In this document: positions 15,439-58,226 of the stretch, in pieces | Numbering within the stretch: the first letter of the stretch is position 1 | Layout of the letters: every line of letters starts with the position of its first letter | DNA from: a virus | Virus record (IMG/VR): IMGVR_UViG_3300023172_000016 | Coordinates: 26,914-90,913 of that record | Length of the DNA stretch: 64,000 bases | Strand: one strand, 5' to 3' | Program-made: the position numbers and the translations under genes | Notes under the pieces: generated by a model | The model's database searches: none | Seen by the model: the letters and a program-made list of their open reading frames with translations, nothing else | Told to the model about the DNA's origin: nothing

Positions 15439-16929
15439 TTAATCCTTTTTGTATAAAATTTCCATAAATTCTATTCCACCATATGGATCTCCTTTTGCTT
15501 GCATTGGTGAATAGCCATCAACTTGGTCAGAAACCACGAAAGCTTTGTGAGGGTTAACCATAACACCAAGCTTTTTCATTAATGGCCGGTTGGCTAAAAA
15601 CGGGGTGCTTTTAGATATCCTGTCTGTTGGTGCAACTTTTACTTTAGGAATCTTGACGCCATTGAAAACTATATCCATTTCTATAATGGGTCTTTCGTCT
15701 GTATCCCTACCTATTTCAGTTTTGGTTCTGCCAACAATTTTTCCTTCAATCTCATTTTCACCAATCTTGAATTTGAGAGTGTCTCCATTTTCTTCAATTT
15801 CATCAGCATGGATAGAAGATGCTGTGGAACCGTTTCCTGTATCAAATTTAGCTACCATTTTTCCGATGGATGGAATTTCTAAAGTTTCAAGATATCCTAC
15901 CTCCAACTTAGTCTGAGACCAATTCTTCTTGTCTACAATATAATCCAAGACATCTCCTACGATCGGTTTTCCGATAGCTTCAGATATTCCTTCCGTTCCT
16001 GGTGATGAATTTACCTCAAGTATAAATGGCTTGCCAGTTTTAGAGTCAATCATAATATCAACGCCACACCAGTTACAAGATACACTGTTTGCTGCTTCAC
16101 AAGCTATTTTTTCAATCTCCTCATTAGTTTCATAAGCTGAAACCTCTCCACCTAAGGTATAATTAGTCCTAAAGTCTTTCTCTACTGCTTGCCTTTTCAT
16201 TGCTCCTAGGACTGTGCAGTTTTCTACACCCGGGTTTAAAGGATCGAATTTTTTAACTATTACCTGAATCCTTACATCGAAATCAGAATCGATCTTTTCC
16301 TGCAAAAGTATTTCACCATCAGGATCAAGTTTTTGAATTGTTTGGTAGACTGACTTAAGAGATGCATAAGAGTCTACAATTGAAACTCCAATACCTTGTG
16401 AACCAGACAACAGCTTCATCACTACCGGAAATTCTCCCCCAACTTCTTCAAGAGCTCTATCCAATCCCTTTGTGCTATTAACTAAAGCATATTTTGGTGT
16501 TGGAAGCCCTTCCTCATCAAGGACTTTTGATGTGAGGTATTTACTTTCACATATTTCTATAGATTCCAAAGAATTAACACAGAAATATCTAGATGCTTCA
16601 AGATCTCTCATAATTTGCTTTGTGTAGGAGTTAGTAGTGACTCCTCCCCTTGGAACAATAGCTGTAGTCTCTGGTCTTATTAAGATCTCTTTAGCCTCTT
16701 CTCCGTCAGTGTACTTAACCACGTGTCCATTATAGACCTTCTCTAGTACCACATTATTGACGTTAACAACATTAAATGTTAAACCTCTTTTCTCACACTC
16801 CTCTGCGAAAGACTTAGCAGTTTTGCTGGGTTTTGATTCCCCACTAAGCATAAGAATATCTACGGATTCGTTATTCTCGGCTTCATTTAGAAAAGATTGA
16901 AAATTAAGTGCAGGGGAAATCCTTTGCAT
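15439..16929 (-). CDS. RimK-type ATP-grasp ligase fused to retropepsin-like domain
   Basis: A 496-aa two-domain protein. Residues 25-320 are an ATP-grasp ligase like RimK/LysX (VVMKLLSGSQGIGVSIVD, EILLQEKI, PFILEVNSSPGTEG); these add amino acids such as glutamate to a protein or peptide. Residues 335-490 resemble the retropepsin-like PF05618 domain (MVAKFDTGNGSTASSIHAD, with the DTG motif). The N-terminus has the putative head-targeting motif NFQSFLNE (residues 9-16). If packaged, it could modify host proteins on injection, as T4 Alt does; that role is inference. Confidence 0.82.
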   Translation of the reverse strand: MQRISPALNFQSFLNEAENNESVDILMLSGESKPSKTAKSFAEECEKRGLTFNVVNVNNVVLEKVYNGHVVKYTDGEEAKEILIRPETTAIVPRGGVTTNSYTKQIMRDLEASRYFCVNSLESIEICESKYLTSKVLDEEGLPTPKYALVNSTKGLDRALEEVGGEFPVVMKLLSGSQGIGVSIVDSYASLKSVYQTIQKLDPDGEILLQEKIDSDFDVRIQVIVKKFDPLNPGVENCTVLGAMKRQAVEKDFRTNYTLGGEVSAYETNEEIEKIACEAANSVSCNWCGVDIMIDSKTGKPFILEVNSSPGTEGISEAIGKPIVGDVLDYIVDKKNWSQTKLEVGYLETLEIPSIGKMVAKFDTGNGSTASSIHADEIEENGDTLKFKIGENEIEGKIVGRTKTEIGRDTDERPIIEMDIVFNGVKIPKVKVAPTDRISKSTPFLANRPLMKKLGVMVNPHKAFVVSDQVDGYSPMQAKGDPYGGIEFMEILYKKD

Positions 16930-16957
16930 GTGTAAAATTTACTTTGATGTATATATC

Positions 16958-18070
16958 CTACTTGGTGACGCTTATTTCCCTCTTGGATCTGGCAAGAGCA
17001 CTTCCGATTACGTGGTGCATATCGTAATATTTGTACTCAGCTAATCTTCCACCAAATATATACTTATCAGAAATTTGTTCAGCCAATTTCTTGTAGGCTG
17101 AATAAATGTTTTTATTCTTTTCGTCAGATACTGGATAAAACCTCTCTTTGCCTAATTTCCACTCGGAGGGAAACTCTTTGGTAATGACTGTCTTATCTGA
17201 TTTTACCCAATCAAAATGCTTGTGTTCACATATCCTTGTCCAAGGTATATCGGCTTCAGTGTAGTTTATTAAAGCATTTCCCTGAAAGTCTTCAATATCT
17301 AAAATTTGTGAATTGAAGTCTAGACTTCGATATTCTAAGATACCCTCTGAATAATCAAAGAATTCGTCGATAGGACCGGTGAAAACTATTTTTTTGGCTT
17401 GAGATTCCCAATATTTTCTGTCCTCTAAGAAATCAACATTAAACTTTACCGGGACATCACCTTGGATATTCTCTATCATTTTGGTGTAACCACCAATAGG
17501 TATTCCTTGGTACTTATCGAAATAATAATTATCGTCGTATGTTAACCTTATCGGTAGTCTCCTTATGATGAAAGAAGGCAATTCTTTAGGGTCTCTTCCC
17601 CATTGCTTAGTAGTGTATCCCCTTACAAACTTTTCGTAAATCTCTTCTCCAACCTCATTAAGAACCCACTCTTCGAGGTTTGAGGGTTTCTTAATTTTTA
17701 TCCTAACCTCGTCTAATTTTTTCTTTGCCTCTTCGGGAGTATTAACACCAAAAAGCTGATATAATGTCATGAGGTTAATCGGGAATGAAAATATTTTTTC
17801 CCCGTACTTAACTTTGGGTCTATTCACATAATTATTAAACTTAGCAAATCTGTTTACATAGTTCCAAATGCCATCATCAGATGTGTGGAATATATGGGGT
17901 CCATATTTATGAACCTCTATACCATGCACATTTTCGGTATAGCAATTTCCACCGCTATGATTCCTCCTCTCGAGGATAAGGCAACTCTTACCGGACTCTG
18001 TAAGTTGTTGTGCAAATACACTACCAAAAAGACCGGAGCCAACTACGATATAGTCATAAGTATCATTCAT
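16958..18070 (-). CDS. glf: UDP-galactopyranose mutase
   Basis: A 370-aa flavoenzyme of standard length. The FAD-binding motif is VVGSGLFGSVFA (residues 9-20). The family blocks HKYGPHIFHTSD, FPINLMTLYQLFG and RGYTTKQWGRDPKELP are all present. It converts UDP-galactopyranose to UDP-galactofuranose, the donor for galactofuranose in surface glycans. It starts 3 bases from the glycosyltransferase gene upstream, so the pair may make and transfer galactofuranose. Confidence 0.95.
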   Translation of the reverse strand: MNDTYDYIVVGSGLFGSVFAQQLTESGKSCLILERRNHSGGNCYTENVHGIEVHKYGPHIFHTSDDGIWNYVNRFAKFNNYVNRPKVKYGEKIFSFPINLMTLYQLFGVNTPEEAKKKLDEVRIKIKKPSNLEEWVLNEVGEEIYEKFVRGYTTKQWGRDPKELPSFIIRRLPIRLTYDDNYYFDKYQGIPIGGYTKMIENIQGDVPVKFNVDFLEDRKYWESQAKKIVFTGPIDEFFDYSEGILEYRSLDFNSQILDIEDFQGNALINYTEADIPWTRICEHKHFDWVKSDKTVITKEFPSEWKLGKERFYPVSDEKNKNIYSAYKKLAEQISDKYIFGGRLAEYKYYDMHHVIGSALARSKREISVTK

Positions 18071-18072
18071 TA

Positions 18073-18915
18073 TTAAATTTCAAAGGTCGTTTTATTTTTC
18101 ATCCATTCAACTAAACTATCCAGATCTTTTCCGGGTTTAAATCCATGGTAGAATAAAATCCGACTACTATCATCACAGGTCTCGTACAAACGAGTATCTA
18201 AATTATCCAACGAATATTCTCTGAACTTATCTATAACAACGTTTTCTTCTGTCTCTATATTTAAAAAAGAATCAAAAGATGTGGTATTAAAAAATACAAG
18301 GTCAAAAAAATCTGTACAGCCTCCTTTCCAGAGGGTAATATTATAAGCGGTCTCCTCTCTAAAAGGGAAATATATCTCTTTTTTCTTAAGAAGATACGGA
18401 TTAAGTAGGATCGATTTCCACTCCTCCAGGAAATCTAGACAATTGTCGTTATATGAAATCATGCTGGCCCATAAATATTTACAAGATCTTTCAGCAATAC
18501 CGAAATATTCCATGAGCTTAGTTTCATCATAAACAATAGTCTCCTCACCAAAAGATTTCCATATCCAAACGTGGTCTTGTGGTCCCGAGGATGATATTGG
18601 TAATTCAGAGCTTTCGTTGATCAACTTCTCTGGATCAAACCTCTTACTTAATATGATATCACAATCCATATAGAGGATATGACTGTCATAATTTAGCCCA
18701 TCGATGAGAATATCTGGTTTATAGTAAGTAAGGTCCGGTTTTTCCGGATCTAATTCATATCTGATCTTGGTGAAATTTGGATATTCTAGAGTAGAATCAA
18801 AACCAACTGTGTAGTATAGGACATGAACATCCCCAACACTAGCATATTTTCTGGAAACCATAAAAGCATTAACCATGCTTTCGTACACAGAATCAGAATA
18901 AACCAAAATCCTCAT
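18073..18915 (-). CDS. Glycosyltransferase with DxD motif
   Basis: A 280-aa putative GT-A glycosyltransferase. It starts MRILVYSDSVYESMVNAF, has the metal/nucleotide-sugar motif HILYMDCDIIL at about residues 80-90, and LFYHGFKPG near the C-terminus as in GT8-like enzymes. It is adjacent to glf, making galactofuranose transfer a reasonable guess. The acceptor is unknown. Confidence 0.7.
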   Translation of the reverse strand: MRILVYSDSVYESMVNAFMVSRKYASVGDVHVLYYTVGFDSTLEYPNFTKIRYELDPEKPDLTYYKPDILIDGLNYDSHILYMDCDIILSKRFDPEKLINESSELPISSSGPQDHVWIWKSFGEETIVYDETKLMEYFGIAERSCKYLWASMISYNDNCLDFLEEWKSILLNPYLLKKKEIYFPFREETAYNITLWKGGCTDFFDLVFFNTTSFDSFLNIETEENVVIDKFREYSLDNLDTRLYETCDDSSRILFYHGFKPGKDLDSLVEWMKNKTTFEI

Positions 18916-18926
18916 TACTCGTTTAT

Positions 18927-19196
18927 CTACATCCTTGTTACAACCTCACTGAAAAGATGTTCTACCTCCATTGCAGCGTGCAATTTTTGGAGTTCAGAAC
19001 ATTTTTGGAAATCCTCCTCCAATTCAAAAAAATCTAGCAGCTCTTTCACCCTTTCACATTTAAATAAGGTTGAAAAATATTTATCCGTAATGAAATCTTT
19101 ACGGTACTTCATAATCATGGAGTAATTATCATACATGAAATTTCTATATTCCTCAAACCCGTCATCAAACAGGTATTCTAAAAATGGGTCTGCCAT
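18927..19196 (-). CDS. Hypothetical helical protein (89 aa)
   Basis: An aromatic and acidic helical protein (MADPFLEYLFDDGFEEYRNF). The start ATG overlaps the stop of the upstream membrane protein gene (TAATG), implying translational coupling. No family is recognised. Confidence 0.55.
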   Translation of the reverse strand: MADPFLEYLFDDGFEEYRNFMYDNYSMIMKYRKDFITDKYFSTLFKCERVKELLDFFELEEDFQKCSELQKLHAAMEVEHLFSEVVTRM

Positions 19197-19576
19197 TACT
19201 TATCCTGATTTCTAAGTCTAAGCCAGTTCTTGATGCTCAATATAGCGGTAGTCAAAATAACCATGCCACCAATAAAGAACAGTCCGTCAAACTCGTCGTA
19301 TCCGGATTGCAAAATTGTTAACTGCACCAGCCCAAACATATAACCAAACCACATTATCACCCAAACTAAGTCGGGTACCCTTTTTGTCCTTTTGGTTATT
19401 TTTTCAACTTTCTCATCATGTACTACTCTACTTAGAGCATCTTGCAGATCCTTTCCATATGCAGGAACATTTTCTGTCGTTCCATCCTCATTTAATACAG
19501 TGACTTCATACTTAAGCCATTCAGGAAAGGATTCAGATTCCTTTCTATATTCAACTCTAATTGCTTTCTTTCTCAT
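19196..19576 (-). CDS. Two-helix membrane protein (126 aa)
   Basis: Residues 1-65 are soluble with a beta-rich pattern. Residues 69-90 (LVWVIMWFGYMFGLVQLTIL) and 97-115 (GLFFIGGMVILTTAILSI) are membrane spans. It overlaps the genes on both sides by a few bases, so it belongs to a tightly packed operon. The function is unknown. Confidence 0.6.
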   Translation of the reverse strand: MRKKAIRVEYRKESESFPEWLKYEVTVLNEDGTTENVPAYGKDLQDALSRVVHDEKVEKITKRTKRVPDLVWVIMWFGYMFGLVQLTILQSGYDEFDGLFFIGGMVILTTAILSIKNWLRLRNQDK

Positions 19577-19748
19577 TTTGGTTATAGGTTTTTTCTATTG
19601 ATTTAAGGTACTCCATAGAACTGACTGGACCTAAGATCGCATCAGGGGAGTACAGATAAATGTGTAGGAACATTCTATCATCATTATATCTCTCTCTTAT
19701 TAATTTTAGGGAGGAGATGTCAGGTAAAAATCTTTTATTAAATCCCAT
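19557..19748 (-). CDS. Hypothetical protein (63 aa)
   Basis: It starts directly next to the stop of the polymerase C-terminal gene and overlaps the membrane protein gene by 20 bases. It begins MGFNKRFLPDISSLKLIRER. No family is recognised. The position suggests co-translation with the polymerase half. Confidence 0.5.
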   Translation of the reverse strand: MGFNKRFLPDISSLKLIRERYNDDRMFLHIYLYSPDAILGPVSSMEYLKSIEKTYNQNEKESN

Positions 19749-20894: not shown

Positions 20895-20898
20895 GCTA

Positions 20899-21660: not shown

Positions 21661-21720
21661 TTCTTGTGATTTAACTTTAATCTTCTATAGTACCTACAGG
21701 AATTAATTTCGTCTCTACAC

Positions 21721-21748
21721 AAAAAATCCCGACTATTGCCGGGATTTA
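21721..21748 (-). terminator. Rho-independent terminator
   Basis: On the minus strand AAATCCCG/CGGGATTT encloses GCAATAGT and is followed by T-rich sequence. It ends the transcript of the 21768-22745 gene ahead of the clamp gene. Confidence 0.85.
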
Positions 21749-21767
21749 AATTTGATTGTGGTGATGT

Positions 21768-22745
21768 CTATTGCATACCGGTAGATCTAATAGTGTCGAT
21801 AATAACTCTCTTATCTACAGGATTGAGTGTTTCTGCCCATTTTCTCACAGATTGAACATCAGTTGGTATTGATGCATAGCTATTAGTAGACGAGCTTTCC
21901 TTTCCTTTATCACCAGATTCTTCCTTTGGAGATTCTTTAGCTGCAGTAGCATCAAAAGCCTTTTTAGAAAAATCCTCTATATTCTTTACAATCGTGTCGA
22001 ATTCTTTCTTTGATTGTGCTGGAAGATCCTTAGTTTCAACGTCGTCGATCTTGCCTTCAACTTCCTCTTTTCTTGCTACACCAAAGTCTATCTTAGATCC
22101 CTTAATTTTTGAGTTCAGATCGTTTGCGATTTCAATTATAAGATCGTTGCTAAGATTTACTTTCTCATTATTAAACATTTCAGAAAAAGTCTTACCTAAC
22201 ATATCGTAGAATAATCTCATTTGGTTAGCAATTTCACTTTTATAAGATGCATATGGACTTCCATCGGAAAGAGTTTCACCAAGACCTTTCATAATCTCAT
22301 CATAAGTAGTATCCTTCCCTAGAATTGTGAACTTCTCTATTAAACCTCTCTCAATAGCACTGAACTCTTGCCATACCTGAGGCCAAGCTTCCTTCCAAAA
22401 AGATCCTGCATTTGATTTCTTATTTTCTATAATATCCTTACCGTCAAATTCTACAGTTGGGATTATATAGCTAATAAGCGTTGGGAAAATTTTCTTAGAT
22501 ATTCTATTAAATGCTGCATTAAATATAGCTCTATCAGAAGACTTCTCAATATTATTGGCGGAAACTTCTTTTACATTCTCCAACCAAGCATCGACCACTC
22601 TTGTAGCAACATCATAGGGCTTGATAGATTCACCGTTTATATCGATCTCCTTGTCTAGAGGTAAACCGGATCCACCCCAATTTATTTTCAGATCCTCGTT
22701 TAGTGAGAGGTAGTATCTCTTAGAAAAACTTTGTATGTTATCCAT
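21768..22745 (-). CDS. Hypothetical, possible internal virion protein (325 aa)
   Basis: A 325-aa protein. The N-terminus FSKRYYLSLNED contains an L-x-E site and a loose form of the shared head-targeting motif. Residues 20-230 are helical; 230-300 are charged and low-complexity (KESPKEESGDKGKESSST), then a short folded C-terminus. A GATATATAA promoter-like element lies 17 bases upstream. A structural or injected protein is plausible; no family is recognised. Confidence 0.55.
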   Translation of the reverse strand: MDNIQSFSKRYYLSLNEDLKINWGGSGLPLDKEIDINGESIKPYDVATRVVDAWLENVKEVSANNIEKSSDRAIFNAAFNRISKKIFPTLISYIIPTVEFDGKDIIENKKSNAGSFWKEAWPQVWQEFSAIERGLIEKFTILGKDTTYDEIMKGLGETLSDGSPYASYKSEIANQMRLFYDMLGKTFSEMFNNEKVNLSNDLIIEIANDLNSKIKGSKIDFGVARKEEVEGKIDDVETKDLPAQSKKEFDTIVKNIEDFSKKAFDATAAKESPKEESGDKGKESSSTNSYASIPTDVQSVRKWAETLNPVDKRVIIDTIRSTGMQ

Positions 22746-22761
22746 ACCTAAGATTTTTCAT

Positions 22762-22770
22762 TTATATATC
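22762..22770 (-). promoter_or_regulatory. GATATATAA promoter-like element
   Basis: A perfect copy of the recurring element, 17 bases upstream of the ATG at 22745. It overlaps the stop codon of the gp52 gene. Confidence 0.5.
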
Positions 22771-24144: not shown

Positions 24145-24194
24145 TTATTTCTTTTAACGGTAGTTGTATAAATCTTAAAAGGATTTGTTTCTAA

Positions 24195-25337
24195 TTAAGA
24201 AAGCTTTGATCCAACATCATCCATTTGGATAAGGGCAACATCTATTTTTCTTTGTCTTGCTGATTTTAGCTTACCAAGAACCCTATTCAGATCCGATGCT
24301 TTGGCAAAAACCAAACATCCAGCAGACCAAGTATTTACATTTTTAGAAGTTCCTCTAGATCTGGCTCTGTGAATGTTTATGCTGAATTTACCACTTTGTG
24401 AATTACCAGGGGAGAATGTTTTGAAAGTTGCATCTTTGGGATTAGCAACAGGTACATATCTATCAACGTTTACTTTACCGTCCTGTACAAAGGCACTATA
24501 ACCTCTATGAGTACCTATTTTATAGTCATATACTCCGGGTTGAACAATAGCAAGCCCTTTGGGGTTAATGGTATCTTTTAGACCTGTTGAAAGGTACCAG
24601 TTTCTAAAAGGCCTTACCATAAACATAGGCCCAGGAACAGTAGTTGCCTCGTATGTCCACACCTTCTTTTCGTCCTCTGGAGACATTAATATAATAAGAT
24701 CAATGAAGTGATTTCCTGATTTTTTCTTCTCCGAAAGGTAGTTTCTTAGAGCAACCAAGTTGTATTTGCTCTTGTCCATCTCTCTCCAATAATTTTGGCT
24801 CTCAAGAGCTGATTTAAGGGAATCCCAAGTAATCTTGTTCTTATTTCTAAATTTATATGAAGAGCTTCTAGGTAATAAAGATGCATCAGGCTCAAGCACC
24901 GCATTAACGTCATCCTCTGCCGCTCTTATTGCATCACCAACTTCCTCGACTTCTCTCCGGACATTAGGATTCTTGTTTAAAACATTTATTAGTTCATTAT
25001 GTGGTGCTGGTGCATCAGTTGGGGTTCCAAGGTTACTGGAGTTCAGCAACCATTGTTCAAGGGATGATCCAACCTTAGTTGCCATAAGTAAATCAAGGCC
25101 CGTCATTTTTTTAGGATCCATGAAAGAATCAAAATCTACCGGCTCTTGTGTAGGCGGTGCAGTATTGGAAGCAGGTTTATTGGTTGTTATAGAAACATGA
25201 GATTCAGGATCTTTTAAGATATCCATCAGTTTGTTTCTAGTTACTCCTGCAGTCCTACCTAAAAGGGATGAGCTCTCGTAAATGGAATCTTCCCTTTCGT
25301 TTATAAATTCTTCAAATCCCTTTAAATTCTTTCCCAT
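24195..25337 (-). CDS. YkuD-like (L,D-transpeptidase-type) virion protein
   Basis: A 380-aa protein. The N-terminus GKNLKGFEEFINEREDS has the head-targeting-like motif with an I-N-E cleavage-type site at residues 12-14. Residues 60-180 are low complexity. Residues 230-370 resemble the YkuD/L,D-transpeptidase fold: INIHRARSRG supplies the His and WSAGCLVF the Ser-x-Gly-Cys active site. Such enzymes act on peptidoglycan peptides. A role in wall penetration or in modifying the host wall after injection is inferred. Confidence 0.7.
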   Translation of the reverse strand: MGKNLKGFEEFINEREDSIYESSSLLGRTAGVTRNKLMDILKDPESHVSITTNKPASNTAPPTQEPVDFDSFMDPKKMTGLDLLMATKVGSSLEQWLLNSSNLGTPTDAPAPHNELINVLNKNPNVRREVEEVGDAIRAAEDDVNAVLEPDASLLPRSSSYKFRNKNKITWDSLKSALESQNYWREMDKSKYNLVALRNYLSEKKKSGNHFIDLIILMSPEDEKKVWTYEATTVPGPMFMVRPFRNWYLSTGLKDTINPKGLAIVQPGVYDYKIGTHRGYSAFVQDGKVNVDRYVPVANPKDATFKTFSPGNSQSGKFSINIHRARSRGTSKNVNTWSAGCLVFAKASDLNRVLGKLKSARQRKIDVALIQMDDVGSKLS

Positions 25338-30204: not shown

Positions 30205-30735
30205 TTATTCGCCTGCCGGCTCGTAATAAATTTCTTCTACCTTAATTGGGAGAATTTTAGCTTCATAGCCTTTGTCCTTCAAGGAAACTGGGATTCCAAT
30301 AACATAATCCTTTCCTTCAATGTTTTCAACACGGTCTACAAGAAACTCTGAATCAAAGAATATCGTTCTTTTATCACCAAATCTATTTAGGTCGAAATCA
30401 AACTCATCAGCATCAGTATCCTTTTCGATCTCCTTTCCTATGGTTGATTTATACTGTCTGGCAAGTCTTTCCCTTTCCTTAGCTATGATATCTTTAACAT
30501 AATCAGGAGCTCCTTTACCTTGTGTTGGAACTTCCGCAATGACAGTAATGCTTTCAACCTGGCCAGCATCCTTTTGTGCTAACATATCCCTCAATTGTGG
30601 AATAACTTCAGAATATTTAAGCTCCTTCTCTGGTCTTACATTCACATTCTTTCTGAATTTAGACTCGTCGTAAACTGGTGTTACCCCCTCATATAGGGAT
30701 TTGCTAAATTCTTCATATAATTTTAGATTGTTCAT
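30205..30735 (-). CDS. Candidate head-packaged protein (176 aa)
   Basis: The frame is open from TTG at 30741, but ATG at 30735 is preferred. It begins MNNLKLYEEFSKSLYEG, with a Tyr version of the shared motif (YEEF) and an L-Y-E site. The rest is an acidic alpha/beta protein of unknown fold. A promoter-like GATATATAA lies 19 bases upstream and a strong terminator follows, so it may be transcribed alone, as expected for an abundant virion protein. Confidence 0.6.
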   Translation of the reverse strand: MNNLKLYEEFSKSLYEGVTPVYDESKFRKNVNVRPEKELKYSEVIPQLRDMLAQKDAGQVESITVIAEVPTQGKGAPDYVKDIIAKERERLARQYKSTIGKEIEKDTDADEFDFDLNRFGDKRTIFFDSEFLVDRVENIEGKDYVIGIPVSLKDKGYEAKILPIKVEEIYYEPAGE

Positions 30736-31035: not shown

Positions 31036-31586
31036 GGATTATTGGATTTAAGACCCAGGAGTTTGTGGTATCTGTGGACATTGCAAGACCAGTATCTCGG
31101 TTTCCATTTAGGTCCAGGATCTGTACATCTGTGTCTTGCTCTAAACGATTTAGAAGCCTTTGGATCATCGTTCTTTATTCTTTGGCCTGGTTGTCCAAAC
31201 CTAACCTTGACAACCTTACCCTCGCCGTTTTTTGTATAAACAGCAAACTTCCTTGTCTCACCAGGAGTTCTAAAAGGCTTGTTGATTTTTACCTTTCTAC
31301 CTTGGTATTTTTCCTCGTTAATTTCGAACGGGACGTCAAGTAAAACTTCTTCTCCCCGATATTTAGCTTTTTGTCCAGCTTCTGTACTAATAAGGAAAAT
31401 GTCATCAAGGTCAAGATCTATCTGCTCATTAATCCAAAGGTTTCTAGATTCATTTATTAAATCCAGCCAAGAATCAGATTCTATTCTATAAACACTCTCC
31501 ATTAGGGAAAGGCCCTCTTCTATATGATACCTTAGGGATTCGCTAATATTTTCAGATGTGAATGATGTAAAGCTTCTTAATTTCAT
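31029..31586 (-). CDS. DUF5872-like protein with head-targeting-like N-terminus
   Basis: A 185-aa protein. The N-terminus KLRSFTSFTSENISES has the F-x-x-F motif and S-E/S-x-E sites. Residues 105-180 match the DUF5872 pattern: KFAVYTKNGEGKVVKVRFG, then IKNDDPKASKSFRARHRC and YWSCNVHRY, ending near a Trp. This domain is frequent in phages, often fused to other virion parts. Its function is unknown; the Cys, His and Arg content suggests nucleic acid or metal binding. Confidence 0.65.
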   Translation of the reverse strand: MKLRSFTSFTSENISESLRYHIEEGLSLMESVYRIESDSWLDLINESRNLWINEQIDLDLDDIFLISTEAGQKAKYRGEEVLLDVPFEINEEKYQGRKVKINKPFRTPGETRKFAVYTKNGEGKVVKVRFGQPGQRIKNDDPKASKSFRARHRCTDPGPKWKPRYWSCNVHRYHKLLGLKSNNPW

Positions 31587-34120: not shown

Positions 34121-34745
34121 CTTTAGGCTTATAAGGCAAACCAACTTTTTTTACTAACTGCTTATATACGGTTTCAATTTTCTTAGATGCGTTTACTTCA
34201 ACGAGCTTTCTGCTTTTCTTGTATTTCTTTACCAAAGGAAGCGTTTTTTTCCTATAGTCCATAAACCTTTTGGAAATGATCTCTTCGTCCTGGTCGTCTT
34301 TTCTGCCGCTATCCTTGGATCTTTTTATGATCCTCTCCTTTGACTTAGACTCGTCAACGTCCAAGTAAATAACATGATTTAAACCCAATCCCATTTTTCC
34401 CAAAAGAGAATCAAGAAGCTTAGCTTGTTTTAAATTTCTTGGAAACCCGTCTATAACAATACCCTTTTCTAAGTCAACATTACTTAATGCTTTTCTTAAC
34501 ATCCTAGCCATTATGCGATCGGGTATGAAATCTCCTCCCTCTACTATTTTCTTAAGTTCTTTGTCATCAGAATTCCTGATAAGGGCTCCAGTAGAAATGT
34601 GGCTAAAATCATTGCGGTCAACAAGTCTTTTAGATATGGTTCCTTTGCCCGATCCAGGTGGACCCAGAATCACAAGGATTTCCCCTTGCTTATCTGGTAT
34701 TTCCCTTTCGTTTATAAAATTTTCGAAGCTTTCAACTCTTTCCAT
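34092..34745 (-). CDS. Adenylate kinase-like NMP kinase with head-targeting-like N-terminus
   Basis: The ATG at 34745 is preferred over 34775, which would overlap nrdA. The protein begins MERVESFENFINEREI, a near-perfect version of the shared motif with an I-N-E site. The kinase domain starts at about residue 20: ILVILGPPGSGKGTISKRL (P-loop), HISTGALIR, GIVIDGFPRN and DVDESKSKERI. The LID region appears short. It would phosphorylate a nucleoside monophosphate. It is next to nrdA/nrdB, but the leader suggests virion packaging. Confidence 0.85.
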   Translation of the reverse strand: MERVESFENFINEREIPDKQGEILVILGPPGSGKGTISKRLVDRNDFSHISTGALIRNSDDKELKKIVEGGDFIPDRIMARMLRKALSNVDLEKGIVIDGFPRNLKQAKLLDSLLGKMGLGLNHVIYLDVDESKSKERIIKRSKDSGRKDDQDEEIISKRFMDYRKKTLPLVKKYKKSRKLVEVNASKKIETVYKQLVKKVGLPYKPKDGGKKEKAS

Positions 34746-40301: not shown

Positions 40302-40622
40302 ATGGAAGGCAGAGTCAAAAGTTTCGAGAATTTCCTTAATGAATATTACATTTCCGCAGCCCCTGGAAGTGTGGTTGTACCTGGCGAATGGTACAAGGAT
40401 AATGTTAATTCTAGAAACTACAGACCAGCATATACACAAACCCCACAAGTAGTGGATGCTATGTTCCAAAGTACAGATCTTTACAACTACCTAGACACCC
40501 TGGCGGAAGAGGATGAATTCAACGAAATGGTTAAAAGAGGGGAAGCTCCAAAAGAGGTGATTAAGTATGTTAAAAAAAGAATTCACGAGGAGCTTTCAGC
40601 TAACGCTAAAACCTCCGAATAG
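40302..40622 (+). CDS. Candidate head-packaged protein (106 aa)
   Basis: A plus-strand gene starting MEGRVKSFENFLNEYY, with the shared motif and an L-N-E cleavage-type site at residues 12-14. The rest is Pro/Tyr-rich up to residue 50, then helical. A GATATATA element lies 16 bases upstream on the same strand. It is followed 20 bases later by the amidase gene; the two form a plus-strand pair. Confidence 0.65.
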   Translation: MEGRVKSFENFLNEYYISAAPGSVVVPGEWYKDNVNSRNYRPAYTQTPQVVDAMFQSTDLYNYLDTLAEEDEFNEMVKRGEAPKEVIKYVKKRIHEELSANAKTSE

Positions 40623-44969: not shown

Positions 44970-45509
44970 TTATCTACTGATGATGAAAGTCCCTTTATGA
45001 GATCCCTCTTGCATTGACCATTCAGGTCCGAGGAATGAAAGTAAAACGGATTTTAGCATTTCCTCATAGTTTTCAATCTCGATATTATCTTGCATTTCGT
45101 CAAATATACGAATTACTTTAGAATTCTTCTCGAGATAATTTAAAAGGGCCTTAGATATTTGCTCCAAAAATCTACTGAGATCATTATCCCTCAGGGTAAA
45201 CTTTTGGTCATTTAAATCTGGGACCTCCGACTTCTTTATAGCTATATCTTCTATGATCTCAGGAGCAATCTCGTTTATGTTTAGGACTGCATAAGAGTTT
45301 TTTGGACCCTCCATAGATTCATATTTGGAATACTTACCAACTACCAACATAAATCCTTTTTGAGCTCCATTTTCCAATTCAAGCTGAAATAGGTAATTGT
45401 AGATATCACCATCTTTTATCAGGAGAAATGGGAAAGTACCAAACCCGTCACCCTCATTAACCGGATTGGATTTTAAAAAGTCTGAGAAATTCTGTATTCT
45501 TTTTTCCAC
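44970..45509 (-). CDS. Candidate head-packaged protein (179 aa)
   Basis: It starts at GTG 45509 with MEKRIQNFSDFLKSNPVNEG, a version of the shared motif with a later V-N-E site. The rest is alpha/beta (FLLIKDGDIYNYLFQLEL) with a helical C-terminal half. A GATATATAA element lies 19 bases upstream. No family is recognised. Confidence 0.6.
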   Translation of the reverse strand: MEKRIQNFSDFLKSNPVNEGDGFGTFPFLLIKDGDIYNYLFQLELENGAQKGFMLVVGKYSKYESMEGPKNSYAVLNINEIAPEIIEDIAIKKSEVPDLNDQKFTLRDNDLSRFLEQISKALLNYLEKNSKVIRIFDEMQDNIEIENYEEMLKSVLLSFLGPEWSMQEGSHKGTFIISR

Positions 45510-47906: not shown

Positions 47907-48821
47907 TTATTTAATCTCTGTAGGAATTTCAAATCCACCATTAACAAGGTATCTTTCTAAGTCATCCCTAATTTCTTGCTTTTTATCAGCGTGTACAAAA
48001 GAAGGAGACGAAACTATTTTCCAAGCGTCCTCGAACGATTTCAAATCATCCTTGTTTACACCACTCCCGAACATCATCTCAACAAATTCATCCGGATCCC
48101 TAGTAATAAAGGATGTTTCTCCCTTAACTGTCTTTGGACTTTTTAGCCTCTTTGTAGCACCTTTAAATGATTTCTTATTCTTATAAATACCATCGCTTAA
48201 CCTTAAGGCGTAGGAGTAAAAGTCTTCTATCTCATTATTTTCGTCCTTGGATATTACCTCTTTTAACGCGGAGAGTATTGCTTGGAACAACCAATTTCTG
48301 TGGGCTGACTTATACTTACTTTCTCCCTTTCTATAATCGGGGGAATAGAATATGAATTTAGCCCAATCCATATCCGAAATTGGAATAAGATCCAACTGAA
48401 CTATCCCATTAGAAGCATCACCCTCTATTGGCCATCCAATCGAAATGACGTTTATTCCCCTCATTAGTTTAAGGTCTGGCACAAAACCGAGTTTATCCTG
48501 TAGAGTTTCAGAAAGAATTTTATAAAGGGACCCTAATACATCATCTTCAGAAACACCCAAGCTTTTTGAAAGGAATGCTTTATCAATTCCAAGATCTATA
48601 TCACCAGAGGTATCATTTTGACTTTTTTTCTTTCCTATACTACCGATTATAAGGTATTCCTTATCTACCTTCCCGCCACCCAAAAGTGGGAAAAGAATTT
48701 TCTCAATAGATTCTAAAGTTTTCGGTACCTCGGACTCCTTAATCCTCCTTGACTCCTTAATTGCAGCACCACCTTCAAAAAGTGATACGAAATCTCCAAA
48801 TTTTAATAAGTTATTTGCCAT
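47907..48821 (-). CDS. Pol-beta-type nucleotidyltransferase with head-targeting-like N-terminus
   Basis: A 304-aa protein. The N-terminus NNLLKFGDFVSLFEGG has the F-x-x-F motif with an L-F-E site. The catalytic pattern is IIGSIGKKKSQNDTSGDIDLG (GS helix, then D-x-D) with a third acid in VQLDLIPI, as in pol-beta-type nucleotidyltransferases. These transfer NMP to RNA, proteins or small molecules, including some toxins. The target is unknown. It overlaps the next gene by 11 bases. Confidence 0.75.
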   Translation of the reverse strand: MANNLLKFGDFVSLFEGGAAIKESRRIKESEVPKTLESIEKILFPLLGGGKVDKEYLIIGSIGKKKSQNDTSGDIDLGIDKAFLSKSLGVSEDDVLGSLYKILSETLQDKLGFVPDLKLMRGINVISIGWPIEGDASNGIVQLDLIPISDMDWAKFIFYSPDYRKGESKYKSAHRNWLFQAILSALKEVISKDENNEIEDFYSYALRLSDGIYKNKKSFKGATKRLKSPKTVKGETSFITRDPDEFVEMMFGSGVNKDDLKSFEDAWKIVSSPSFVHADKKQEIRDDLERYLVNGGFEIPTEIK

Positions 48822-49302
48822 CTACATCAAAATAATTTGAAGCGGAGTAAACATAGTCTTGGTAAAGCTTCTGATCTCTGCCCTCTGGATTTCTAATATC
48901 AAACTTCTTCCCGAAGGTCGATCTGCCTTTTAGAATGGCATTTCTATAGAATTCTTCGTAATTTTTTTCCTTGTTTTTACCAGAAGCCCTAATTGAATCT
49001 CCCCATCTAGAAAGAACCTGTTCTTTGTTTTTTTCCAAACCATCAGCATCCATACTTGCTGCTTTTCCAGAATCGAATAAATCTGCTATCCCCTTTCCGA
49101 CTTTTTGTATTCCCTCAACAGCTCCCTTCACAAGCCTCTGTAAAGCTCCGCCTTCATCATAAGCCATTTGATATAGCTTTTCCTCGCCGGTTTCAGCTTC
49201 TATCCTCCTTCTGATTTCTTTGATTCTGTCACTGGCTCCGGGATAAATCTTATCTCCCCTGCTTTCAGAAAGAAATTGTCCGAAATTTTTAAGGTTCTGC
49301 AT
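48811..49302 (-). CDS. Candidate head-packaged protein (163 aa)
   Basis: Two ATGs are possible, 49314 and 49302. The second has AGGA 8 bases upstream and gives MQNLKNFGQFLSESRGDK, a near-perfect shared motif with an L-S-E site. The body is basic and helical (DRIKEIRRRIEAETGEEK) with a Gly-rich amphipathic stretch (LVKGAVEGIQKVGKGI) that could touch membranes. No family is recognised. Confidence 0.6.
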   Translation of the reverse strand: MQNLKNFGQFLSESRGDKIYPGASDRIKEIRRRIEAETGEEKLYQMAYDEGGALQRLVKGAVEGIQKVGKGIADLFDSGKAASMDADGLEKNKEQVLSRWGDSIRASGKNKEKNYEEFYRNAILKGRSTFGKKFDIRNPEGRDQKLYQDYVYSASNYFDVDGK

Positions 49303-53692: not shown

Positions 53693-54475
53693 CTAAGTGT
53701 CCCAAAAGTTTCCCTTAGATTGTATATATGCATAATTTTTTTTATCTATTCGTTCACCTGTGGATTCAATTTCCCACACTCTCTTACCTCTTAAGGATAC
53801 CTTTACCATAGGGCGGGAAAGGTTAAATTCAGAATTAAGTATATGATGCTTTAAAAGTGTCTCTGGGTGAAAGTAAACACCAGAGAGAATGTATTCTTCC
53901 ATCATCTCGTAGAGTTTTGAGTAGTGTTCCATTGCTTCCCTACCTCCCCATGCAAAAATATCATTAACCCCGCCCTTCCAATCAAAACCGGGAGGAATAC
54001 ATATAGTTTTTAGATTTGGATCCAAAGGGATGTCGTTGTGGATTTTTATGTCCATTCTTCCTTTTATAATATAATCATATCTCTCACCAGTTAGGTTTTC
54101 ATACTCCTCTAAAAGGAGAAAGGACTGTCTTATCTTATACCACATCAAGAAAACCGAAACTGGATTTATCTCACCAGTTTGTGGGCCATAGCTTTCAAAC
54201 GACCACGCTTTATCTATTATCCTTGATATACCCGGGGATTCAAACTTGTCCATCTTTATGGTTACTGGAGAATAAAGACTTGCTAAAGTGTCGGTGCTTA
54301 GGGTGTCAGTAAGGTGGTGTGTTTCTGCATGAAGGGAATTTTTTATAGTTTCAGATGGGCTCCAGGTAGATATAAAAACATCTGGCTTAAACCTATCCAA
54401 AATTCTGCCTTTTAAGTAGGGAAAGGTTTCTTTTGCCTCCCTAATCTGGCCAGGAAGTAAAAGAGCTACTTTCAT
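53693..54475 (-). CDS. Glycosyltransferase-like protein (260 aa)
   Basis: It begins MKVALLLPGQIREAKETF, then RFKPDVFISTWSPS and YDYIIKGRMDIKIH. This combination recurs in proteins of viral and bacterial glycan loci that are annotated as glycosyltransferases. R-M-D occupies the position of a DxD-like motif. No experimentally defined family is claimed. It overlaps the GDPD-like gene by 35 bases and belongs to the 53693-57199 cassette. Confidence 0.55.
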   Translation of the reverse strand: MKVALLLPGQIREAKETFPYLKGRILDRFKPDVFISTWSPSETIKNSLHAETHHLTDTLSTDTLASLYSPVTIKMDKFESPGISRIIDKAWSFESYGPQTGEINPVSVFLMWYKIRQSFLLLEEYENLTGERYDYIIKGRMDIKIHNDIPLDPNLKTICIPPGFDWKGGVNDIFAWGGREAMEHYSKLYEMMEEYILSGVYFHPETLLKHHILNSEFNLSRPMVKVSLRGKRVWEIESTGERIDKKNYAYIQSKGNFWDT

Positions 54476-54920
54476 TTGTACTTAAAAATTTGTACTTCTC
54501 TATATAATCTGAGCAAATTCCACAACATCCGTTAACAGGATCATCATAGATCTCAGGAAGAACTGCGATACTTTTATTTATGGGCTGATTTCCAGGGAAA
54601 GCCCAAATGAAAGACTTAGAAGTAAGAGTTATTCTGTCTTGTTCATGCCAAAATACATTGAATTCAACATACTCCTTTAGATACACAAGGGCAGAGATGT
54701 TTTTGCAGTGGATCCAAAGGTTGTCTGATCTCTCCATAAGCCAATCTAAGGAGACCTTAGAATTTGGGGAATCGTGTCCTAAATAAAGTGAAGATCCAGA
54801 TATCCAAACATCTATCTCCACATCATAACCAAGATCAAGAGCTTCTTGTATGTAGTCAAGGTTGTTCTCTCTTGATGGTATTGGCCCCTTTATATTTCCC
54901 CGGTGTGATATTAGTCTCAT
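54441..54920 (-). CDS. GDPD-like phosphodiesterase domain (159 aa)
   Basis: The N-terminus RLISHRGNIKGPIPSRENNL matches the HRG and E-N motifs of glycerophosphodiester phosphodiesterases, followed by GYDVEIDVWISGSSLYLGHD, which supplies the E-x-D and GHD metal/catalytic residues. At 159 aa it is shorter than the usual 240-260, so part of the barrel is missing or much reduced. It starts one base from the RuBisCO-like gene stop. It could act on a phospho-glycan intermediate; this is inference. Confidence 0.7.
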   Translation of the reverse strand: MRLISHRGNIKGPIPSRENNLDYIQEALDLGYDVEIDVWISGSSLYLGHDSPNSKVSLDWLMERSDNLWIHCKNISALVYLKEYVEFNVFWHEQDRITLTSKSFIWAFPGNQPINKSIAVLPEIYDDPVNGCCGICSDYIEKYKFLSTNESSSFTSWPD

Positions 54921-54921
54921 C

Positions 54922-56157
54922 CTAAAATATCCTGTAATCTAGGTCTTTAGAAAATGTTCTTTTTCCCCATTTCTTTATGGCACAAACATATTCCTCTTCT
55001 TGGAAATCATTATTGATGGCTTGCTTCATTGCCAAGCCACCAGCTCTAGTTCCCATTGGATGTCCATGCATAGCTCCTCCAACATTAGCCATCCAATCCA
55101 CACTATGTATAGATTCATTGATATAATCAACCAGACCAGGATGCATTCCACAACTGAGAGCTGGAACTATATTGTAATGCCAGAGGACTTTTAGAGTATC
55201 CCGTATCTCATCATCATCCTGGTTCATATAACCTCCAATCATTCCAGCATGTATAGAATCCACACCAGACCATCCAGCAATTTTACAAATCACAGGCCAG
55301 TAGATGTGGAATGGTGCCCTTTTGTCAGTAAAGAATTTATCACCACTTTTTTGAAAATGTATCCATAGGTTAGGGTTTTGCTTCCTTATAGCACGATATA
55401 CCCCAAGACCGCTCCAGACATTTATGTGGATTCCGTTCCCGCCATTATTTGCAACAAAATTTGCTCTCTCCAAAGCATATGGGCTATCACCATTTATACA
55501 AAAGCAATAAATAACATCTGGTGCATTCTCTTTCAACCAGGAAGAAATAAGTGGAACCCTTTCCTCAAAAGGACAATGACTAGGATTCCCTAAGAGCTCG
55601 TCTTCTTTTATGAAATTAACTCCTCCGTAGACCATCTCCTTTACTGCCTCTAGAAGAACCTCCGGACTCATACCAACTTTAGGCTTAATAATACCCCCAA
55701 AGAATGGCTTATCTATAACATTATTGAATCTTCTAAACCCATCTATACCATAAGCAGGGGCAAGAGAAAAATCAGATTCTACCTTATCAGGAAGGCTAAT
55801 ATCTAAAATATGACATTTTACAATTTCTTCGATGTCCACCTGTCCACCAGCTATATGACAAAGAATTTGGGATATTCCATCCTCCTCAAGGTTAATATTG
55901 TCAAGAGGGAATGCAATGGAAACTTCCCCAGATTTTTTTTGGGATAACTTCTTCTCGTCATCCAAAACGAAGCAGCTGTGATCCAAAAACATCTGATCGG
56001 TTTCCCAAATGCTCCTATTATTAGGATTGCCAATACTTTGACCTATTGCAAGATTCCAGGAAGCATCCCTTAATGATGTTTTAGCCTCTAGAAAATATCT
56101 TACTACAAAGTACTTTTGAACATCCAACGATTCTTCTTTTGTGAATATACTTATCAT
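54922..56157 (-). CDS. RuBisCO-like protein (form IV type)
   Basis: A 411-aa protein of the RuBisCO large-chain superfamily. There is a ferredoxin-like N-domain (1-135) and a barrel with GGIIKPKVGMSPE (155-167). The metal site GGVNFIKEDE (178-187) keeps Lys184, Asp186 and Glu187. His267, Ser335, GG at 360-361 and HGHPMG (364-369) are also kept. The loop-6 Lys (K334 in RuBisCO) appears replaced: GMIGGYM instead of G-x-x-x-G-K. It is therefore probably a RuBisCO-like enolase, isomerase or decarboxylase, not a CO2-fixing enzyme. Neighbours suggest sugar-acid or glycan chemistry. Confidence 0.88.
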   Translation of the reverse strand: MISIFTKEESLDVQKYFVVRYFLEAKTSLRDASWNLAIGQSIGNPNNRSIWETDQMFLDHSCFVLDDEKKLSQKKSGEVSIAFPLDNINLEEDGISQILCHIAGGQVDIEEIVKCHILDISLPDKVESDFSLAPAYGIDGFRRFNNVIDKPFFGGIIKPKVGMSPEVLLEAVKEMVYGGVNFIKEDELLGNPSHCPFEERVPLISSWLKENAPDVIYCFCINGDSPYALERANFVANNGGNGIHINVWSGLGVYRAIRKQNPNLWIHFQKSGDKFFTDKRAPFHIYWPVICKIAGWSGVDSIHAGMIGGYMNQDDDEIRDTLKVLWHYNIVPALSCGMHPGLVDYINESIHSVDWMANVGGAMHGHPMGTRAGGLAMKQAINNDFQEEEYVCAIKKWGKRTFSKDLDYRIF

Positions 56158-56477
56158 TTTACAATAAATTTATCTCCTGGTACTGATGGAGTTTTTACTA
56201 TAAAGACCTCGCAATCTTCAAGAAAAACTGGGTCCGCAACTTCACCTTTCCTAAGTATGAATATGTCGCCTGCTACTAATTCAGTTCCTTGTATAATCAT
56301 TTTACCACTTCTCAGGAAATTTATTTCATCCGCCTCCTTGTGATAATGCTTAGGCCAATCTTCACCTTGGATATGCTTCTTGTAGCAAACCTCAAAATCA
56401 CTTGTAGGAAAAGCAACAGGAGAGAAATTACCTGCGTACCAACCTCCTTGCATATTATCAATCTTAAATACTTCCAT
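56154..56477 (-). CDS. Cupin-domain protein (107 aa)
   Basis: The ATG at 56477 lies in a TGATG overlap with the upstream gene's stop; the codon before it is TTG. A single small cupin domain has metal ligands in WPKHYHKEADEINF (H-x-H, then E) and a second motif GDIFILRKGEVADP. Cupins of this size act as sugar isomerases, dioxygenases or sensors. The stop overlaps the RuBisCO-like start by 4 bases, so the two are translationally coupled and likely act in one pathway. Confidence 0.8.
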   Translation of the reverse strand: MEVFKIDNMQGGWYAGNFSPVAFPTSDFEVCYKKHIQGEDWPKHYHKEADEINFLRSGKMIIQGTELVAGDIFILRKGEVADPVFLEDCEVFIVKTPSVPGDKFIVK

Positions 56478-57199
56478 CAATTTACAATTCCTAAATATCT
56501 TTTTAAATCCTCGGGTGTACCGATCGGAAAGTGAAGGTTATAGAAGAATGGAAGTATTTTCTTTCCCTTTTTTATAAGATAATTATATGTAGGGGCAACA
56601 TAGAATTCGTTGTTGTAGCGATCGTTCAGTAAAATCATCTCCTCCGCAGAATGAACGAAATCTGATCCTTTGCTCCAAAAGTGTAATCCATTGGTAGCAA
56701 TGTTTGATATTACTATTTTTTCTTTGACATCACAAACCTCGCCGTTGGGATCCAATTTTACATAACTGTTCTTCTTAGAAGATGAAAGAAAACATCCAAG
56801 CAATCCGTCACATCCAGTAACCCCGACAAAGTCAATAATGTTATCGAGATCATAATCCAATATAACCTGGTCACAGTTGATGACCATCAAAGGATCTTCG
56901 TTGTTTATTAAATCCTTTGCAACCAAAACAGTAGAAGCGGGTCCTTCAGTTAGCTTACTAACAGATCTTGTTTCATAAGTAATATTAAGATCACTTATGT
57001 GTTTCTCAAAATCTGACACGGACACGAATTCCTCGTTGATAACGAAAATGAAATTAGCAGAGGGATGATTTAGGTTCCTCACCACTGCTTTAATCATAGG
57101 TTCTCCGTTAACATCTATAAAAGGCTTCGGAGTTGCATAGCCTGCATCAGAAAACCTTTTTCCTGCACCTCCGAGAGGTATAAGTATATTAATCTTCAC
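56477..57199 (-). CDS. NTP-sugar nucleotidyltransferase
   Basis: A 240-aa Rossmann-like nucleotidyltransferase: INILIPLGGAGKRFSDAGYA (the GGxGxR signature), TPKPFIDVNGEPMI (Lys that contacts phosphate), and VINCDQVILD (metal-binding Asp). Length and motifs fit the NTP_transferase family that makes NDP-sugars or CDP-alditols. It is the activation step expected for a dedicated glycan pathway with the cupin, RuBisCO-like and GDPD-like genes. The sugar is unknown. Confidence 0.85.
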   Translation of the reverse strand: MKINILIPLGGAGKRFSDAGYATPKPFIDVNGEPMIKAVVRNLNHPSANFIFVINEEFVSVSDFEKHISDLNITYETRSVSKLTEGPASTVLVAKDLINNEDPLMVINCDQVILDYDLDNIIDFVGVTGCDGLLGCFLSSSKKNSYVKLDPNGEVCDVKEKIVISNIATNGLHFWSKGSDFVHSAEEMILLNDRYNNEFYVAPTYNYLIKKGKKILPFFYNLHFPIGTPEDLKRYLGIVN

Positions 57200-57869: not shown

Positions 57870-57893
57870 AATGAAATTATTTAAAAGTGCAAC

Positions 57894-57902
57894 TTATATA
57901 TC
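57894..57902 (-). promoter_or_regulatory. GATATATAA promoter-like element
   Basis: A perfect copy 25 bases upstream of the resolvase start, just after the terminator of the preceding gene. Confidence 0.55.
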
Positions 57903-57906
57903 GACA

Positions 57907-57935
57907 CAAAAAAGCCCTCCACATTGGAAGGGCTT
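57907..57935 (-). terminator. Rho-independent terminator
   Basis: On the minus strand AAAGCCCT/AGGGCTTT encloses TCCAATGTGG and is followed by TTTTTTG. It ends the 57981 transcript; the resolvase promoter-like element overlaps its downstream edge. Confidence 0.9.
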
Positions 57936-57980
57936 TGGTCCTCGGATAAACATCTGAGAAGGGGCGTACTTAAAGATCTA

Positions 57981-58226
57981 TTACATAGAAGGCTTTACAA
58001 CCTCACCTTTTTTACCGGTATAGTTGTAATCATTGATAAGCTTATCGTAGCACTTCTTCATCTGATCATCAGTCAAACAATCAACGATGTCATTTAAAAC
58101 TCTTTGATCGTTTCCTGAAGCAGCTACCAAAAGGTCCTTCATATGTTGTTTCAAATCGTCCTCACCATACATTGGTTGGCCGTATTTCATTTCATTAATC
58201 TTGGTTAAATCTGAGAACTTTTTCAT
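57981..58226 (-). CDS. Small candidate head-packaged protein (81 aa)
   Basis: It begins MKKFSDLTKINEMKYG, a looser version of the shared motif with an I-N-E site at residues 10-12. The remainder is helical (HMKDLLVAASGNDQRVLNDI). It has a promoter-like AT box upstream and a strong terminator, so it is probably expressed alone. No family is recognised. Confidence 0.6.
   Translation of the reverse strand: MKKFSDLTKINEMKYGQPMYGEDDLKQHMKDLLVAASGNDQRVLNDIVDCLTDDQMKKCYDKLINDYNYTGKKGEVVKPSM

Follow-up and report, generated by a model that had tools for sequence, protein, structure and literature searches.

The closest described system is the capsid-targeting leader (CTS) of phage T4 (MKTYQEFIAE), in which experiments have assigned residues 4 and 7 to targeting and residues 8 and 10 to processing (PMC9026906). 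T4 has three internal proteins bearing this leader, which are injected, and at least 10 have been reported across the T-even phages (PMC12373910); the core proteins of T4 are cut into fragments (PMC9026906). IPI, IPII and IPIII have non-homologous bodies with the leader alone in common, and they are encoded by variable accessory genes. To our knowledge, how the T4 targeting peptide docks in the core is not settled. The giant phages SPN3US and phiKZ likewise carry many proteins in the inner head whose N-terminal propeptides are cut by a prohead protease, and these proteins are thought to be ejected (PMC5694885). However, several of their propeptides exceed 100 residues and carry another cleavage motif, whereas the leaders discussed here are 12-20 residues long and T4-like in motif. 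In phage P1, which belongs to a different phage group, the Dar proteins are anti-restriction proteins associated with the head, and capsid targeting has been discussed for this phage (PMC9024508, PMC12810830).

The window, that is, the whole stretch of 64,000 nucleotides that was analyzed (GC 37%), belongs to a 90.9-kb viral record and encodes many such N-termini (Table 1). The original prediction named nine proteins with an F/Y-x-x-F leader, and all nine sequences are present. It also listed two looser forms, which fared differently: the leader of gene 57981 (FSDLTKINE/MKYGQP), with an aliphatic residue at the second position, is conserved in 13 relatives, whereas that of gene 21768 (FSKRYYLSLNE) lacks FxxF, has a PSSM score of -2.4 and is weak. 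The strict motif occurs at 5 N-termini of this genome and a looser form at about 6 more. In addition to the named proteins, three leaders lie on the same record beyond the window. Orthologs of gene 14529-14849 in the relatives G002 and G005 carry the complete FDDFIDE and FEDFLEE, respectively. In the leader of gene 31029 (FTSFTSENISE) the [ILV]xE element is ISE rather than TSE. ATG 30735 and ATG 34745 are the likely true starts of their genes, the sites upstream of both being disfavoured, and gene 48811 probably starts at ATG 49302 rather than upstream. A PSSM match at 18073 (MRILVYSDSVYES) was judged to be probably a false positive.

Table 1. Leaders in the window and on the rest of its record (negative positions lie outside the window; a slash marks the predicted cut). 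Eight of the nine complete leader genes listed first are on the minus strand, with the leader at the high-coordinate end.
Gene	Leader	Leader position	Strand	Body or remark
15439-16929	MQRISPALNFQSFLNE/	16882..16929	-	RimK-type ATP-grasp ligase + PF05618 protease
24195-25337	MGKNLKGFEEFINE/	25296..25337	-	endolysin/YkuD-like protein; phrog_3000 and phrog_33083 endolysin matches
30205-30735	MNNLKLYEEFSKSLYE/	30688..30735	-	
31029-31586	MKLRSFTSFTSENISE/	31539..31586	-	phrog_7595
34092-34745	MERVESFENFINE/	34707..34745	-	adenylate kinase
40302-40622	MEGRVKSFENFLNE/	40302..40343	+	
44970-45509	MEKRIQNFSDFLKSNPVNE/	45453..45509	-	
47907-48821	MANNLLKFGDFVSLFE/	48774..48821	-	pol-beta-like nucleotidyltransferase by GS...DxD motif only
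48811-49302	MQNLKNFGQFLSE/	49264..49302	-	
57981-58226	MKKFSDLTKINE/	58191..58226	-	variant leader; outside PSSM, yet conserved
21768-22745	MDNIQSFSKRYYLSLNE	22695..22745	-	doubtful leader
14529-14849	MDLIQEFDDFMSDL	14808..14849	-	targeting half only
	FRSFIGNSLNES	-25003		outside window
	FSVFEDV	-19069		outside window
	FEDSIGN	-3320		outside window

The N-termini of this genome were scored with a hold-out model, whose training was limited to families absent from this genome. At a score of at least 8 it retrieved 11 of 131 N-termini, against 0.40 expected, and at score 10 it retrieved 10, against 0.00. Replication and tail proteins scored low, and the core replication proteins have no leader, contrary to the idea that the motif might be equally common among them. 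Across 9 records, strict [FY]xxF[ILV]xE occurs 1.28 times per 1000 residues within the first 20 residues and 0.07 times in protein bodies. The N-terminal excess is 18-fold for the strict and 3.5-fold for the loose motif; it does not exceed about 1.7-fold when E is replaced by K, D, S or N or when the F-F spacing is altered, so that the enrichment is specific to the register and to E. When gapped patterns of three positions were enumerated without bias, [ILVM]xxFxxF, K-x4-F-x2-F and FxxFxxE came out highest, and 100 of 1138 families have at least one member scoring at least 8. C-terminal leaders are only slightly in excess (14 against 5.9 at score 8) and are not claimed as a signal. An NrdB match in the relative G003 (200916) was judged a false positive.

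The likeness to T4 extends to the register of the aromatic pair, the aliphatic residue and the glutamate, all at the N-terminus. Furthermore, the clade-trained PSSM, applied to T4, ranks IPIII and IPII first among 256 ORFs, in line with the claim that the leader resembles the CTS. Judged from the sequences, the tag is a two-part element, as in T4, with FxxF for targeting and [ILV]xE for processing, although a gap of 0-6 residues between the two parts is tolerated here. Orthologs retain both parts while the remainder of the leader turns over, and in gene 44970-45509 the distance from FxxF to the site differs between orthologs. The [ILV]xE element lies within 18 residues in 152 of 187 leaders; with S, D, N or K in place of E the count is 34-45, and with Q it is 15. 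In spaced leaders the glutamate is followed by S, A or G in 43 of 57 cases (24.75 of 35 with family weighting), against an internal background of 17%; the residue after E had no part in the search model used for this count.

As had been proposed, the bodies behind the leaders are unrelated, and the leader is a separable add-on. In the adenylate kinase it adds about 22 residues, bacterial adenylate kinases aligning from query residue 23, and in the RimK protein it forms an N-terminal extension, whose motif is retained in 12 of 13 orthologs, the sole exception being a 37% ortholog. Whole-enzyme bodies include adenylate kinase, RimK ligase, CHAP and SLT peptidoglycan hydrolases and GDPD. Among the identities first assigned in the window, the RimK/PF05618 protease and the adenylate kinase held up. 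The YkuD-like (24195) and pol-beta-like (47907) assignments are plausible, resting on local motifs with a PHROG endolysin match as the only further support, and a Pfam search of the named bodies did not recover DUF5872.

The original prediction also called for a test for a gp21-like protease. An S77 HMM found no match on the 90.9-kb fragment, on which the head module does not lie, but 6 relatives have an S77 protease, and the relatives that encode it include a contig out of the metagenome that also yielded the close relative G001. The link from the fragment to the protease therefore runs through relatives, whose RimK proteins are 46-64% identical where the protease shares the record. For the present phage, a gp21-like fusion bearing the array described below is predicted to lie some 60 kb upstream of the sheath gene. 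The Pfam Peptidase_S77 score is 31.5 bits (cut-off 27), and a Foldseek search with the N-terminal domain returned T4 gp21 (5jbl, E 4e-7) as the only matches under 0.001. H76 and S131, candidate catalytic residues, are invariant in 19 protease sequences. As in T4, the gene adjoins that of gp23 in the head module. However, gp21 has 218 aa, whereas the relatives' protease has 623-682 aa (807 in a 735-kb phage) and is a single long ORF with the MCP directly after it, in place of a T4-style stand-alone protease with a separate gp22.

The additional C-terminal half, which apparently replaces gp22, is predicted to be a helical rod, in which [FY]xx[FYH][ILV]xE usually occurs 6-17 times. The copies are spaced 14 residues apart, and the typical unit, YSEY[IL]AE, is near-identical to the leader. 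Wherever the ORF was called whole, at least 3 motif copies are unique to the protease within the proteome; the protease ORF of G024 is absent from this count and was read from L115. By number of internal matches to the leader PSSM the protease leads in G022 and ties for first place in G009, but it does not lead in G002 and G010, since the matrix favours F as the second aromatic residue; the array was therefore counted with a relaxed pattern. The units have Y instead of F, and the residue behind them is in most cases N or K, not S, A or G, so that they may dock without efficient cutting. In AF2 a single-sequence model of the fusion was poor, and a run with 16 sequences, all from IMG/VR loci, was usable for the N-terminal domain only, the rod being of low confidence.

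Near-complete relatives in this T4-like phage family (349-373 kb) have 34-38 leader matches each, against 1-2 expected, and the bodies include large enzymes; the 735-kb phage has 36 in 200 kb. No array was found in T4, P-SSM2, CBB, Lak-A1, MaF61 or PA5oct, which have 0-4 leader matches each, those of the control phages MaF61, PA5oct and CBB being near chance. Among this handful of phage lineages, array-bearing phages are leader-rich and leader-poor phages lack the array, although LR756500 has many leaders and only 3 recognisable array copies. The MCP of the relatives retains YHSLNE/[SN]. A search of GenBank phages for near DNA matches to window positions 15000-35000 returned none, while two other samples (IMG 3300020189 and 3300023173) have contigs identical to the window. 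In the open-access literature we found neither an earlier description of this leader and array system nor a virion proteome for any clade member; CBB, having essentially no leaders, is uninformative as a test despite its virion proteomics (PMC5259590).

Taken together, these leaders are best explained as T4-type capsid-targeting propeptides that would dock, be cleaved and probably leave with the DNA, a reading to which we assign a probability of roughly 0.8. The leader, its two-part structure and conservation, the protease and array in relatives and their co-occurrence can be read directly from the genomes. Since the leader matches the T4 head-loading tag and the protease is fused to an array of near-identical tags, the phage probably packs this cargo and may inject it; we infer packaging in the head, for which the support from sequence is good, as well as docking on the array, cleavage and ejection. 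During head assembly, FxxF on a short amphipathic N-terminus would dock each newly made enzyme in the prohead core, which the C-terminal half of the fused protease-scaffold protein probably forms as a long predicted helix of tandem units. The activated protease would then cut after [ILV]-x-E, so that the mature enzyme is set free within the head. The original prediction of a large enzyme set that is packaged and injected is, as a whole, partly supported.

A random origin of the motif in AT-rich, K- and F-rich N-termini might be suspected, as low GC (37%) favours K, F, N and I; this explanation is already refuted by the substitution and spacing controls, the near-chance counts in MaF61, PA5oct and CBB and the conservation of the leader across diverged orthologs. 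The leader might instead be a sorting signal that leads elsewhere (to the membrane, a replication compartment, the phage nucleus or a host complex), its likeness to the T4 CTS being convergent, and many cargo proteins are indeed metabolic or cell-wall enzymes without a known head role. Such a signal is improbable, as [ILV]xE, conserved at a varying distance and with a small residue behind it, has the look of a protease site, the near-identical unit is repeated only in a gp21-like prohead protease, the matrix retrieves T4 internal proteins, and the core replication proteins are untagged.

A more serious prospect than missorting, though still an unlikely one, is that the tagged proteins do reach the prohead but escape injection, because they serve there in the core or in assembly, are broken down or stay behind. 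The fragmentation of T4 core proteins (PMC9026906) fits such a fate, as do the several leader genes that lie in the head module of relatives beside the protease and MCP. Nevertheless, many of the bodies are whole enzymes that would make sense in the host cell, and T4 does inject its leader-bearing internal proteins (PMC12373910).

Under the propeptide reading, the sequence itself may reveal the docking partner of the leader, namely the tandem array of the protease-scaffold protein. We suggest tentatively, at somewhat less than even odds, that the leader on the cargo proteins is one scaffold unit, copied and detached, so that any gene gaining a unit-like leader of 12-20 residues would become virion cargo, in an open-ended delivery system of about 30-40 proteins; if so, extrapolation from the 200 kb would give perhaps more than 100 cargo proteins in the 735-kb phage. 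Among the hundreds of uncharacterised proteins of uncultured huge phages, whose genomes reach 735 kb, the leader marks probable virion cargo from genomes alone; adenylate kinase, RimK-type ligases, peptidoglycan hydrolases and phosphodiesterases are among the proteins so marked, and the proteins that huge phages may inject thus become a testable list.

The leader is a short N-terminal tag with a targeting part (FxxF) and a processing part ([ILV]xE), and every leader listed in the original prediction was found in the window sequence. Across nine related records, the strict form [FY]xxF[ILV]xE has a frequency of 1.28 per 1000 residues within the first 20 residues versus 0.07 in protein bodies, and a looser form, in which FxxF and [ILV]xE may stand 0-4 residues further apart, one of 3.85 versus 1.09. 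In controls with E changed to K, D, S or N, or with altered aromatic spacing, the N-terminal enrichment largely or wholly disappeared (at most about 1.7-fold). When all three-class gapped patterns were enumerated without prior choice and weighted by protein family, the top ones were [ILVM]xxFxxF, K-x4-F-x2-F and FxxFxxE. Furthermore, [ILV]xE lies within 18 residues in 152 of 187 distinct leaders, against counts of 34-45 with S, D, N or K in place of E and 15 with Q. A hold-out matrix, trained solely on families without any member in this genome, gave a score of at least 8 to 11 of its 131 N-termini, against 0.40 expected from protein interiors, whereas 17 replication, tail and chaperone-type proteins scored -9.1 to 2.7; the motif is thus not equally common in cytoplasmic replication proteins.

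The near-complete relatives G022 (373 kb) and G024 (349 kb) contain 38 leader matches in 509 ORFs (1.1 expected) and 34 in 431 (1.6 expected), and the GenBank huge phages LR756501 (735 kb), LR756500 and LR756504 contain 36 in 200 kb (1.6 expected), 13 in 100 kb (0.25) and 6 in 100 kb (0.84). At the same threshold, the counts are 3 in T4 and 4 in P-SSM2, where about 1.2 would be expected in each, and 4 in CBB, where 2.5 would be expected; in the parts read, Lak-A1 has 4 versus 0.28 expected, with sequences unlike the leader, MaF61 has 1 and PA5oct none.

The first ten residues of T4 IPIII are enough for packaging: residues 4 and 7 are important to targeting, residues 8 and 10 to processing, and cleavage by gp21 falls after [LI]xE (PMC9026906). 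The leaders here share this residue register, and the matrix trained on this clade ranks IPIII first and IPII second among 256 T4 ORFs (both begin MKTYQEFIAE), so that the proposed T4-like character is borne out. T4 Ip1-3 are injected inhibitors of GmrSD restriction enzymes, and at least 10 Ips are reported in T-even phages, many detected via the leader (PMC12373910); leader-based finding of injected proteins is therefore an accepted approach.

Both elements are retained in orthologs while the remainder of the leader varies. RimK orthologs carry LNFQSFLNEA, LDFWSFLNEA, LRFGNFLNES, LDFSSFLNEA or LNFKGFLYES down to 46% body identity, and only the most distant homolog (37%) lacks the leader. In the family of gene 44970 the linker changes (FSDFLKSNPVNE/GDGFG, FKDFVGSLNE/GDGFG, FIEFINE/ADGFG, YTDFLSNTLNE/ADGFG, FNEFLESVFE/SDGFG; slash, presumed cut), and xE always stands immediately ahead of the body. 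Among leaders whose two elements are separated by 1-6 residues, the residue after E, which lay outside the search model, is S, A or G in 43/57 (family-weighted, 24.75/35) versus 17% internally; the p-value of 6e-22 is an overstatement because orthologs are not independent. In alignments with bacterial adenylate kinases of the PDB, the match starts at residue 23 of the phage enzyme, and the RimK protein likewise carries an N-terminal extension; by these alignments the leader is an add-on to the body.

Among the bodies originally named, the RimK-type ligase (with PF05618) and the adenylate kinase were recovered, and the YkuD-like enzyme as endolysin/YkuD-like; the pol-beta-like assignment is by eye only. 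Apart from a chitinase/endolysin-like protein with a weaker leader, the other leader-bearing proteins of this genome have no assigned function. In relatives, leaders occur on CHAP peptidases, SLT transglycosylases, peptidoglycan-binding proteins, a GDPD phosphodiesterase and an RlaP-type nucleotidyltransferase. T7 gp16 is a known parallel for head-ejected peptidoglycan hydrolases.

Leader-bearing proteins and other features (window positions, negative if upstream, unless a record is named; single values are low coordinates)
Feature	Position	Remark
RimK-type ATP-grasp ligase fused to PF05618 protease domain	15439	leader
Adenylate kinase	34092	leader
Endolysin/YkuD-like protein		leader
Pol-beta-like protein		leader
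Chitinase/endolysin-like protein	-19069	weaker leader
Gene without assigned function	44970	leader
RNA-ligase-like + cytidylyltransferase fusion	45535-47451 (-)	linker motifs
Acidic protein	14909-15238 (+)	C-terminal motif
Nucleotidyltransferase-like gene, head module	L251:377-1168; L235:418-1209; L237:408-1199; G002:120422-121213	PSSM 7-11
Family-B DNA polymerase, two genes	38829-40240 and 19749-20894 (-)	18 kb between
RuBisCO large-chain family protein	54922-56157 (-)	with neighbours, 53693-57199
T4 IPIII; IPII	T4:65834-66415; T4:65416-65718	
MaF61 protease-scaffold protein (ORF140)	L176:5920-10134, P0001	1404 aa

Motifs of this kind also occur elsewhere. The linker of the RNA-ligase-like fusion holds SKFISFGDF and SYQEFISKLE, resembling a leader left within a fusion. 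The acidic protein ends in GRVMRFEDFVNNRD, identically in the relative G001, and a protein of the relative G003 ends similarly in ILSFEDFVDGLDED; these ends are possibly C-terminal targeting motifs without a cut site. The head-module nucleotidyltransferase-like gene, directly upstream of a large portal-position gene, has a leader-like start, FxxFVLNE.

The 90,913-base IMG/VR virus record, of which the window covers bases 26914-90913, is a piece of a large T4-like phage; the window encodes 14 tRNA genes, a family-B DNA polymerase, topoisomerase, NrdA/NrdB, gp32 and a tail sheath gene. No GenBank phage matched a 20-kb stretch of it at the DNA level. Matches to the sheath protein are confined to MaF61, a Flavobacterium phage, and uncultured huge phages (23-31% identity), so the host is likely one of the Bacteroidota. 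At the break, each half of the split polymerase carries a charged, coiled-coil-like terminus. The RuBisCO-family protein (Pfam 7e-32; PDB RuBisCO or RuBisCO-like matches, 4e-33) retains GGxxFxKxDE, drew no match by tblastn against 50,697 phage records, and is kept with its neighbours in about 12 relatives (51-86% identity).

The head module (gp20-gp23) is absent from the fragment, and an S77 profile search of the record gave zero matches; the gp21-like protease was instead found in six relatives, within ORFs of 623-682 residues, T4 gp21 being about one third as long. Its N-terminal domain clears the S77 cut-off, and T4 gp21 structures are the sole significant matches to the AF2 model of this domain (5jbl, E 4e-7). 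Units such as ISYSEYLAENLDKG follow one another through the C-terminal half, for which a single helix of about 186 residues (281-466) is modeled at low confidence. In each proteome with the protease ORF recovered whole, only this fusion has at least three [FY]xx[FYH][ILV]xE motifs (10-14 copies; others at most 2). Seventy further orthologs have 6-15 copies, one of them 3, spaced exactly 14 residues (two heptads) in 670 of about 720 cases; the maximum is 17 (loci L119 and L120). LR756501 has 15 copies and LR756504 12, with a weak array in LR756500 (3), and a contig from the metagenome of G001, a close relative (82% RimK identity to the window), bears 13; none was found in Lak-A1 or MaF61. The MaF61 protease-scaffold protein has many dispersed [ILV]xE sites and no YxxYIAE array. 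The major capsid protein gene lies immediately downstream of the fusion gene, and in 18/18 orthologs read its product retains YHSLNE with S or N as the next residue, likely a cut site of the leader type.

The targeting peptide itself is already known; in the open-access papers searched, no report was found of a leader set this large or with these enzyme kinds, or of a prohead protease bearing a tandem targeting-motif array. On the most economical reading, the fused rod of the protease would be the prohead scaffold, its repeated aromatic-helical unit would build the core, cargo would join this core through its leader, a single unit of the same type, and the protease would afterwards cleave after [ILV]xE. 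Since array units have Y in place of F and N or K after E, they may be capable of docking yet poorer substrates for cleavage than the leaders. Their likeness to leaders suggests that cargo docks on the array, and, by analogy with T4, this cargo would be ejected.
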